DNA of 20,305 nt from the IMG/VR virus record IMGVR_UViG_3300025122_000217, positions 1 to 20,305 of that record; one strand, 5' to 3'. Made by a program: the position numbers and the translations under genes. Source of the stretch: a virus. The notes beneath the pieces were generated by a model. The model ran no database searches. It saw only the letters and a program-made list of their open reading frames with translations, and was not told the origin of the DNA. Below, piece after piece: positions 1,391 through 9,656 of this stretch; position 1 is the stretch's first letter, and the number at the start of each line of letters is the position of its first letter.

Positions 1391-1778
1391 AGACATAGAT
1401 CCTACAAAGGTCCAGATGCTGGCCAGTTTTGGTTGTAGCTACGCTGACCTGGGCAAATACTTCGGATGTGACGAGAGCACTATCCGTAAGAATTTCCGAT
1501 CCCAGTACCAGGCTGGCCGCTCTGAGATGAAGTTAAAATTGAGAAATTTAATGTTTAAATCGGCTCAGAACGGTTCGATTGCCATGCAGATATGGTTATC
1601 GAAGAATTTCTTAAACATGCATGAGCGTACTGCGATTGACATGACTGGCAATTTAGAAACGATCCTGCGCGAATGCGGATTTCAGGAAAACCCGGTTGAT
1701 AAAACGAATAATGAACAAGCAAAAGCTTTGGAAGATCTTGGGGTACACCCCGACTCCACAGCAATTGGCCGTTCATAA
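1380..1778 (+). CDS. terS: Terminase small subunit
   Basis: 132 residues from the ATG at 1380. It would recognise phage DNA and hand it to the large terminase for packaging. The N-terminal HTH (LASFGCSYADLGKYFGCDES, followed by TIRKNF) has the wording typical of small terminases, where a 'which cell/step am I at' helix pair reads DNA. It is followed by basic helices (QAGRSEMKLKLRNLMFKSA) and GSIAMQIWLSKNFLN, another usual small-terminase segment before the oligomerisation region. An in-frame GTG at 1356 would add eight residues, but it lies inside the shared regulatory 12-mer, so I prefer the ATG. The 3' end overlaps the large terminase by 68 nt, as is common for this pair. Confidence 0.8.
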   Translation: MNSKDIDPTKVQMLASFGCSYADLGKYFGCDESTIRKNFRSQYQAGRSEMKLKLRNLMFKSAQNGSIAMQIWLSKNFLNMHERTAIDMTGNLETILRECGFQENPVDKTNNEQAKALEDLGVHPDSTAIGRS

Positions 1779-3040
1779 CGCAGATAATTTTCGCTTTCGC
1801 ATTTGTTTCATGGGTAGGCGCAGTGGGAAGTCCTACATGGCGGCCCATGAGATCATGCCATGGTTATTGACCCCAAAGACCAGGGGCTGGATCGTGGGTC
1901 CCAACTACGCCCTGGCCCAGAAGATTGCCAGGGAGGTCAAGCGAATGGTCATGCAGCAGTTACAGTTGCCATTGGAGACAAAGAAAGAAATAAATGGTGA
2001 GCTTTACAGTATGAAGATTGCCGGTTTGGGTAGTGAGCTCGTAGTGAAGTCAGCGGATGCTGCTGACAGTCTTATTGGCGAGGGTTGACCTTGCGGGGTC
2101 ATTTTGAGGTGTTGATTACTTAATAATAGATGAATTCGCGCTCATATCACGCAATACTTATGAGCAGTATCTCCGGCCCACCCTGGCTGATCGGGAGGGC
2201 TGGGCATTATTCTGTTCCACCCCGCGTGGATTCAACCATGGTTGGGATTACTTCAAATACGGGGAATCTGAGGATTACCCGGAGTGGATTTCCTGGCGTT
2301 TCCCCAGTACTGACAGCCCATATTTCAAGGATAACATAAATGACCTCAAAAGAACGCTTACGAAAGAAACTTTCAGGCAGGAGATACTTTGTGAATTCCA
2401 GTCATACCAGGGAAAATGCTTTCCGCTGGACAGATTTCAAAGTGTTCGCGAAGACATTAAATATGACCCCAATAAGCCAGTATACGCGGGAGTCGATCCC
2501 GGATACCGGCAGGCCCATGTTGTTATCTGTCAGTTACGAAATGAAACCGACAGATTCGCCGACATACATCAGATTGACGAGATCAGCCTGACCAATTCTA
2601 CCACACAGCAGTTAGCGGATGCGATGAAGGCCAAGCCATATCATTATTCGGCGATATATGGTGATCCGGCGGGTAGTGGTATGAATCTTCAATCGGGCCG
2701 ATCGGATTGGAGTGTATTTGCCGCGAATAATTTACGGGTCACCATTAAGCGTGACGCGGTGACCCGAAATGTAGTCAGTGGAGTATCGCATATGCGAAGT
2801 TGGTTTGAGGATGCGGATGGTAAGACACACTTTTTCATGCATCCGAAGTGCAAGGAGTCGCTCAGTTCATACGAAAACTATCATTACCCGGAGCACAAAG
2901 CGGAGCAATCGTTAAGGCATGAGCCGGTCAAGGATGGCCGTGAGCATGCGTGTGATGCGCTTAGATTTATGATAGTTAATCTGTTTCCGATCCGCAATAA
3001 CAAAGCTGGCATGGTTGATTTCGTGTCATCGATTAGGTGA
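1711..3040 (+). CDS. terL: Terminase large subunit, interrupted by a 25-nt putative translational bypass
   Basis: ATPase-nuclease motor that packages phage DNA. The frame from ATG 1711 ends at TGA 2086-2088 after 125 residues; the rest reads from 2108 to 3040 in another frame. Joining GGT 2083-2085 to GTT 2111 gives 434 residues with every expected motif: Walker A GRRSGKS (35-41), Walker B LIIDE (D132, E133), coupling motif STPRG (161-165), and nuclease aspartates in AGVDPGY (D254), GDPAGSG (D310) and EHACDALRF (D407). The junction reads GEGVDYLIIDE, the normal terminase wording, with nothing missing or added. The 3' part has no in-frame ATG, GTG or TTG before 2624, so it is unlikely to be made alone. 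Recoding is inferred; a loss-of-function insertion is the alternative. Confidence 0.85.
2083..2110 (+). promoter_or_regulatory. Putative translational bypass element in terL
   Basis: GGT (2083-2085) is followed at once by the stop TGA (2086-2088). TGACC (2086-2090) and GGTCA (2097-2101) form a perfect 5-bp stem around TTGCGG, and a U-G pair could close a tetraloop. A second GGT (2108-2110) follows, preceded by GA to make GAGG, and then the terminase frame resumes. Matched glycine codons, a stop next to the take-off codon and a hairpin in the gap are the layout of the T4 gene 60 hop, with a 22-nt gap here. Structure is read directly; recoding is inference. Confidence 0.55.
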
Positions 3041-8174: not shown

Positions 8175-9656
8175 ATGGCAGCATTAACAGGCAATTCTAT
8201 TGCCTCAACTTATACTGGTTTGATAAAAACATCCGATAGCGGAGCAAGAGGTGCAGAAGGTTCTGCTGACCAATGTTCAGATGGTGCAGGAAATACTATA
8301 CCTTTGTTTGTATCGGCTACTGAAGTATATGCAATAGGTAGCGGTACAGGTACATCACATACCGCATTTGGAAAAGATTGCGGTGTAGATTTAGCCGCAG
8401 GTACTGGAAACTCTTTATTTGGTGAAGGAGCAGGAGCGGATTTAAGTACCGGGGAGCATAATGTGGCCCTTGGTTATCGTGCATTATATCAAGGGACTAC
8501 GGAAACAGATGATTGTGTCGCAATCGGATACAACGCCATGAGCGGTGCGTGGACTACGGCCGCAGTAAATGATTGTGTAGTAATAGGTAGTGGTGCTGGA
8601 GCAGGTGCTTTAGTTGCCGCTGCTTCAGGATTGACTGCTATAGGCAAATCTGCCCTTGCTGCCAACACATCTGGTGCTAAAAATACTGCTGTTGGATATT
8701 CCAGTTTAGTAACAAATGTAGATGGCAGTAATAATACGGCTCTCGGCTATGAGTCTTTAACAACATTTGAAGCAGACACTCCTAACCATGGCGAGAATAC
8801 AGGGGTTGGGTATAGAAGCGGTAAGTTTATTTCAACTGGGACTCAAAATACATTTTTAGGTTCAGGTGCTGGTCAAGGCGTAGATGGTACAGAATTAACT
8901 GGCGACCAAAATACCGCAGTTGGAATTGAGTCTGGAGTATTATTACAAGGATCGGGTAACCAGAATACATTTTTAGGGGGTGTCTCTGGGAATACATTAA
9001 CGACTGGCTCGAATAATGTTTGCCTTGGGTATAGTGCAGTCACAGATGATGCTACAGCGACAAATCAAATTGTAATTGGTCATAGCACAACAGGCGTAGC
9101 AGACAACTCAGTCACCCTTGGAAACGCATCTGTCACCGCAGTGTATATGGCTCAGGATAGTGGGGCTACGGTTCATTGTGCTGGTATTGATATGAGTGTC
9201 ACATCAAACGCTGGTGGAATGTCAAGTGAAGTTCTGGATGATTATGAGGAAGGCACTTTTGGAACTTCATCGGCGAATGGTATTCTAAAAGATGGGGGTA
9301 CAGGTTCAGTCACGTGCGGTTCATACTATACTTGTAGTTATACAAAAATTGGCAGATTAGTAACCGTAAATGGATATGTAGTCGTAAGTGCAACAAGTTC
9401 TCCCGACGGTACCTTAAAGATTGTCCTGCCATTTACATCGGCACAGATAACACATTATGGAGGTTTTGCCGCCGGTACTGTGGCTTTACATGAAGCGGCA
9501 TACGCTTCAAGTGTTCAATTAGCAATGACAATAACAGAAGCGACGACGGAAGCGGATATAACTGAATTTGCTACTGGAGCAGGATTAGGTGCCGTTTCTG
9601 CTGCCGATTTGTCGTCAAGCGATGCCGTCTGGTTTACTTTACAATATATAACATAA
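8175..9656 (+). CDS. Fibre/spike protein with YadA-head-like repeats
   Basis: 493 residues. Residues about 60-310 hold many short repeats of the type G-x-x-N-T-A-V/L-G-Y-x-S-L (NTAVGYSSL, NTALGYESL, NVALGYRAL, NTFLGSGAG, NVCLGYSAV), which is the wording of the YadA/Hep_Hag left-handed beta-roll that forms trimeric lollipops. A C-terminal domain follows from about residue 345 (VLDDYEEGTFG ... YTKIGRLVTVNGYVVV ... LKIVLPF), a pattern I associate with phage fibre tips. The likely role is host attachment or head surface display. It lies between head and tail genes, not after the tail tip, so a head fibre is possible. Start 8175 has TAGGAG upstream. Repeats are protein-level; the DNA is diverged. 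Confidence 0.7.
   Translation: MAALTGNSIASTYTGLIKTSDSGARGAEGSADQCSDGAGNTIPLFVSATEVYAIGSGTGTSHTAFGKDCGVDLAAGTGNSLFGEGAGADLSTGEHNVALGYRALYQGTTETDDCVAIGYNAMSGAWTTAAVNDCVVIGSGAGAGALVAAASGLTAIGKSALAANTSGAKNTAVGYSSLVTNVDGSNNTALGYESLTTFEADTPNHGENTGVGYRSGKFISTGTQNTFLGSGAGQGVDGTELTGDQNTAVGIESGVLLQGSGNQNTFLGGVSGNTLTTGSNNVCLGYSAVTDDATATNQIVIGHSTTGVADNSVTLGNASVTAVYMAQDSGATVHCAGIDMSVTSNAGGMSSEVLDDYEEGTFGTSSANGILKDGGTGSVTCGSYYTCSYTKIGRLVTVNGYVVVSATSSPDGTLKIVLPFTSAQITHYGGFAAGTVALHEAAYASSVQLAMTITEATTEADITEFATGAGLGAVSAADLSSSDAVWFTLQYIT

Follow-up and report, generated by a model that had tools for sequence, protein, structure and literature searches.

Hairpin inserts that split phage large terminase genes as candidate translational bypassing elements of the T4 gene 60 kind

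The DNA analysed here, hereafter the window, is the whole stretch of 20,305 nucleotides (nt) at positions 1 to 20,305 of the IMG/VR virus record IMGVR_UViG_3300025122_000217, and it carries a large terminase subunit gene (terL) that is split by a 25-nt insert. The 5′ frame, for which ATG 1711 is the likely start, ends in GGC GAG GGT TGA, the stop lying at 2086-2088, while the downstream frame is interrupted by a separate stop (TGA 2105-2107) and then runs open from GGT 2108-2110 to a stop ending at 3040. Because the two frames do not overlap, a simple frameshift cannot join them. The features of the locus are as follows.

1711..2085, + strand: 5′ part of terL, from Walker A (GRRSGKS) to SLIGEG; matches phrog_2 and aligns with the relative L007 from the first residues
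2049..2067, + strand: possible upstream (5′) stem-loop, GTCAGCGG-ATG-CTGCTGAC; a predicted fold
2083..2085, + strand: proposed take-off codon GGT (Gly), after which the 5′ frame no longer matches relatives
2086..2110, + strand: whole 25-nt insert, the proposed bypassed gap; missing from the insert-free relatives L007, L008 and L010-L012
2086..2088, + strand: in-frame stop TGA in the context UGAC, directly 3′ of the take-off codon; at the same place in all class A relatives (defined below)
2086..2101, + strand: take-off hairpin UGACCU-UGCG-GGGUCA; a predicted fold, whose counterparts in relatives covary
2102..2107, + strand: tail from the hairpin to the landing codon, with a private A at 2107 where relatives have T
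2108..2110, + strand: proposed landing codon GGT (Gly), not decoded; matches the take-off codon
2111..3040, + strand: 3′ part of terL, from Walker B (VDYLIIDE) to the nuclease domain, resuming at GTT 2111; matches phrog_2 and is under selection

Both terL halves matched phrog_2 (terminase large subunit), at adjoining profile positions 264-360 and 365-600, and the joined protein gave a 431-residue alignment with the unsplit TerL of L007 (67% identity) that was gap-free at the junction. This alignment bears out the claim, made in a preliminary description of the window, that no residue is lost between the stop of terL at TGA 2086-2088 and its resumption at 2111. Relatives of the protein among isolates were distant only, the best at about 29% identity. 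Downstream of the insert terL is under purifying selection, with dN/dS of about 0.04-0.15 among insert-bearing relatives (some pairs having saturated dS), and its first ATG, GTG or TTG is ATG 2624, 171 codons in, as the same description had counted. Two intact halves, the second of them under selection, would also suit a terminase made as two polypeptides, with termination at the insert, restart from a non-standard codon immediately downstream, and assembly of the halves. However, we hold this to be very improbable: apart from that long run without a standard start codon, the resume codons in relatives (GTT, GTC, GTA, ATT, ATA, TTA, GAT, CAC, CTC, and others) track the protein and not a start-codon rule, the tails carry no conserved Shine-Dalgarno sequence, close relatives make a single chain, and a restart would need none of the matched codons described below.

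The 25-nt insert was also found in five other IMG/VR contigs (L001, L002 (=L016), L004, L005, and L006 (=L017)), among which it was identical; the window differed solely at 2107, with A instead of T. An assembly error, which the preliminary description had named as a concern, is thereby excluded for the insert as a whole. The private A creates GAGG in the window where relatives have GTGG, so the internal Shine-Dalgarno-like landing aid proposed from that motif is confined to the window and is not a conserved feature. For L001 and L005, dS reached 0.61 in the 3′ part, yet the insert was identical, and their tract of identity extended about 50 nt before the insert and nearly 100 nt after it within surrounding DNA that was 66-90% identical, a pattern that resembles a conversion tract. 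As a general account of the inserts, a co-conversion tract was rejected: it was clear for this pair only, and other pairs shared the hairpin with diverged flanks. The window is itself a single metagenomic contig, as would suit an assembly or sequencing error, or a gene in decay. Against this stand the presence of the same insert in contigs from several metagenomes, the different hairpins at the same codon, the covarying stems, and the low dN/dS downstream, which together refute error as a general explanation and leave it a negligible probability; only the private base at 2107 could be one.

Approximately 36 terL contigs of the window's family carried hairpin inserts, of 25-52 nt, nearly all at the codon used in the window. 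This common site, G|[IV]DYL, lies just before Walker B, and different hairpins occupied it in many relatives. In one tally, 27 distinct insert-bearing sequences stood against 60 distinct uninterrupted ones, the latter including some distant relatives; genome contigs contributed one distant relative, without an insert. The preliminary description had proposed a search for relatives with and without the 25 nt, and both were found, the insert-bearing interspersed with the insert-free. Two further sites were used in the same family, one two codons upstream (SLIG|EG, in L137, L139-L142, and L152) and one a codon downstream (L143, with take-off Ile ATT and landing Ile ATC).

The inserts fell into two classes. 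Those of class A open with a stop and comprise the types GGY TGACC-GNRA-GGTCA..., GGY TGAATRGG..., and that of the window, while those of class B (L003, L085, L137-L142, L152, L182, and L267) are long hairpins around GCCCC..GGGGGGC without an adjacent stop. The class A motif GGYTGACCGNRAGGTCARTCA occurred in 12 IMG/VR stretches, in 12/12 at the terL site of the window. When 76 different TerL C-terminal parts were placed on a tree, insert-free relatives lay between the various insert types, and changes from one insert type to another alone numbered at least 11. For example, L009 bears an insert and L008 and L010 do not, and L003, whose class B insert measures 44 nt, is placed next to L001 and the window, with their 25-nt insert, at 98% identity. 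The elements have often been gained, lost, or exchanged. The GNRA hairpins were nearly identical across lineages in which the flanking coding DNA was only about 55-85% identical, which would point to either recent exchange or strong constraint.

Gap lengths across the set (25-52 nt) occupied all three classes modulo 3, which excludes a fixed frameshift, readthrough, or a decoded insert. A +1 frameshift, readthrough, and UGA recoding had each been considered and were rejected on the lack of frame overlap, the occurrence of all residue classes, and further stops within several inserts. Take-off and landing codons specified the same amino acid (Gly, Ile, Leu, or Arg) in 27 of 35 distinct inserts; with the landing slid by 1-12 nt, 0-3 of the 35 were synonymous. 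Counted per site and element, 13 of 16 were matched where 1.6 were expected, a value reached in 0 of 200,000 simulations. Beside the GGT/GGT of the window, the matched pairs included ATT/ATC (L143), CTG/CTG, CTG/CTA, and CGG/CGG, and pairs that differed stayed mostly within the codons of one tRNA (GGT/GGC, ATT/ATC, CTG/CTA), the GGG/GGT of L182 being looser. Mismatched junctions included those of L066, L067, L074, L075, L084, L204, L290, and L307. Several of their tails end in ACAAGC or ACAAGA, sequences that in L293 and L311 also directly precede the CTG landing.

The hairpin reported earlier as TGACC...GGTCA is present at 2086-2101, where it folds as 6 base pairs (bp) closed by a UGCG (UNCG-type) tetraloop, at -7.0 kcal/mol. 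With T4 gene 60 from AF158101 as the control sequence, the take-off hairpins of the commonest class A type and of T4 aligned without gaps (T4 gene 60: GAT GGA TAG CC TTCG GG CTA TC; class A: GAT GGT TGA CC GAAA GG TCA ATC). Both the T4 hairpin and the GNRA class A hairpins fold as ((((((((....)))))))), an 8-bp stem of which the take-off codon forms the first three bases, and in both the stem runs from a glycine codon through a stop to CC-tetraloop-GG. The tetraloop stem of T4 gene 60 includes the take-off codon, as it does in the GNRA relatives, whereas the GGT of the window lies outside its stem. In class A together with T4, two-sided changes occurred in 4 of 8 stem pairs and covariation was 0.300 against 0.158 when shuffled; in a second terminase family, described below, the corresponding values were 8 of 20 pairs and 0.497 against 0.252, although the alignment rows are related and the shuffle counts therefore cannot be read as probabilities. 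A control with slid partners gave low values. The third base of the take-off codon takes part in the covariation (GGU..A, GGC..G). Upstream flanks folded at a mean of -11.6 kcal/mol in insert-bearing sequences and -8.0 in insert-free ones, a comparison of related rows with GC uncontrolled. This stronger upstream folding and the stem at 2049-2067 are suggestive of a counterpart to the 5′ stem-loop of gene 60. An AGGAG before the take-off codon was present in 10 of 20 rows with an insert and in 2 of 50 without, but the difference was not significant when distinct 12-mers were compared, and the motif was rejected as a signal specific to inserts.

Similar elements were found in other terminases. 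In family 2 (phrog_9, Pfam TerL_ATPase), which is unrelated to that of the window, 18 of 81 loci were split by gaps of 47 or 50 nt at four sites: EGL|NIH (CTG/CTA), FDEL|HAQ (CTG/CTG), RLW|DAL (TGG, with landing AGA or CGC), and RYR|LNV (CGG/CGG). The codon phase at which the element started did not differ between the four sites, the joined protein aligned in one piece with terminases of isolate phages, and here too the take-off codon opened the stem (CUG of L293, UGG of L290). A third family (phrog_38) yielded one case, L204, with TGC/AGC. The class B motif, when scanned for, matched 113 stretches, mostly outside split genes, and the recognisable genes that it split were nearly always terminases. 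The motif was rejected as a terL-specific element both for the matches outside split genes and for one split gene that is not a terminase. The latter, phrog_1574, contains a candidate bypass element at 3084-3133 of L192 (also in L236 and L239), at GAFW|SQVNTRVMEQ, with TGG take-off, TGG landing, a 50-nt gap, a GGTTGAGCCCC hairpin, and a hairpin start as in the class B motif. Separately, a hairpin of the form GCCCCYYGGC-loop-GCTGGGGGGC recurs intergenically in unrelated phage contigs (L165, L167, L170, and others), often shortly upstream of a ribosome-binding site.

That the insert is absent from the protein at any length modulo 3 and that some landings mismatch their take-off (e.g., TGG to AGA/CGC) could also be accounted for if the hairpin were a tiny RNA intron, excised and its ends joined by a bacterial or phage RNA-processing system, and the long stable hairpins of family 2 would suit a structure-recognising nuclease. 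We nevertheless consider RNA excision unlikely. The window and five relatives gave no Rfam match at gathering score, including to group I or II introns, and 25-52 nt is shorter than known self-splicing introns. No bulge-helix-bulge pairing across the exon-insert junctions appeared in the predicted folds, which covered the insert hairpin with or without the take-off codon and little of the 3′ exon. A sigma-factor-like gene in the window points to a bacterial host and speaks against archaeal-type splicing, and splicing would leave the synonymous codon match, the constant codon phase, the adjacent in-frame stop, and the T4-like geometry unexplained.

The terL insert is very probably a programmed translational bypassing element of the T4 gene 60 kind, as had been proposed from the window alone. 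Matched codons, the adjacent stop, a covarying hairpin, a length that is independent of frame, constant codon phase, and purifying selection downstream all argue for it. Ribosomes would translate terL to GGT 2083-2085 with UGA in the A site, where the downstream hairpin and weak stop context would release peptidyl-tRNA(Gly) from codon pairing; the ribosome would then slide 25 nt, re-pair at GGT 2108-2110, and decode from GTT 2111 onward to yield one full-length TerL. From the comparative pattern we infer the ribosome as the skipping agent, the order of these events, and their efficiency.

Several observations weigh against translational bypassing. The window hairpin is energetically ordinary (z -1.1) and begins at the stop codon, with the take-off GGT unpaired, and class B has no stop beside the take-off codon. 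Landing codons fail to match in three groups: AGC follows GGY in five distinct inserts (L066, L067, L074, L075, and L084), AGA or CGC follows TGG at the family-2 site 202 (11 contigs), and AGC follows TGC in L204. The bypassing elements (byps) of mitochondria likewise include cases with unmatched take-off and landing (PMC5009743). Additionally, target-site duplication could partly explain the matched codons; it would account for identical copies better than for the codon phase and the pattern of change.

More broadly, and with a good deal less assurance than for the terL insert itself, we favour the view that gene-60-type bypassing exists as recurrent, horizontally exchanged hairpin cassettes that have lodged in the terminase genes of three or more unrelated families and may also occur in other phage genes. 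Take-off would be possible at Gly, Ile, Leu, and Arg codons, perhaps at those for Trp or Cys too, and class B would need no adjacent stop. Such cassettes may be mobile or protective DNA elements, or may control how much terminase is made. If the bypassing holds, an essential packaging enzyme of marine phages relies on ribosome hopping, and gene finders split such terminases. Dozens of natural elements with varied codons, loops, and gaps, together with insert-free sister genes, would then allow the rules of take-off and landing to be read from evolution and checked by simple swaps.

Elsewhere in the window, 1356-1778 is a likely small terminase subunit gene (weak phrog_309 match), whose end is overlapped by the start of terL at 1711-1778. 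Upstream of the terminase genes, 1058-1390 encodes a small protein with similarity to sigma-70 region 4 and the GerE helix-turn-helix; this sigma-factor-like gene suggests that the host is a bacterium. A search for the host by portal homology found no match among phage records. At 8175-9656, a 493-residue open reading frame with repeated NTALG/NTFLG-like motifs and no Pfam match is perhaps fibre- or adhesin-like.

Among known systems, the +1 frameshift signal of prfB (RF2) places a Shine-Dalgarno-like AGGAG immediately upstream of the P-site codon and UGAC downstream of it, and many class A inserts are alike in both respects. They differ in that what is skipped is a gap and not a single base, and the window type lacks the AGGAG. 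The mitochondrial byps of the yeast Magnusiomyces capitatus number 81, with many per genome, whereas the window has one insert; the terL inserts belong to phages, with the class A motif in IMG/VR confined to the terL site. The Hau3-type bypass likewise concerns a terminase gene and a short gap (PMC5009743), but is set apart, by its description, by a UUA codon and a much shorter gap, where the window has take-off GGT, A-site UGA, and a hairpin.

Finally, efficient bypassing in bacteria has so far, to our knowledge, rested essentially on T4 gene 60, and a bypass family such as this was not described in the literature searched, which took in few subscription journals and nothing from bioRxiv, so that an earlier report is possible. 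A stop directly follows the take-off codon in T4 gene 60, as UGA does in the window and all of class A, though not in class B. The gap is 25 nt in the window and 50 nt in T4 gene 60; sliding in gene 60 is reported to lose no processivity as long as the gap does not exceed 56 nt (PMC11194080), a range of efficient sliding that includes the window and the whole set (up to 52 nt). A stimulatory nascent peptide belongs to T4 gene 60, and no such signal is known for these terL inserts; a KKEI segment upstream of the insert is present also in the insert-free L007, and TerL sequence is constrained anyway. T4 gene 60 is a topoisomerase gene, whereas the gene split here is essential for packaging, and the present elements further differ in their GNRA or UNCG tetraloops, many lineages, several sites, and non-glycine codons. 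The novelty is one of breadth: many elements, several codons, three terminase families, and frequent gain and loss.
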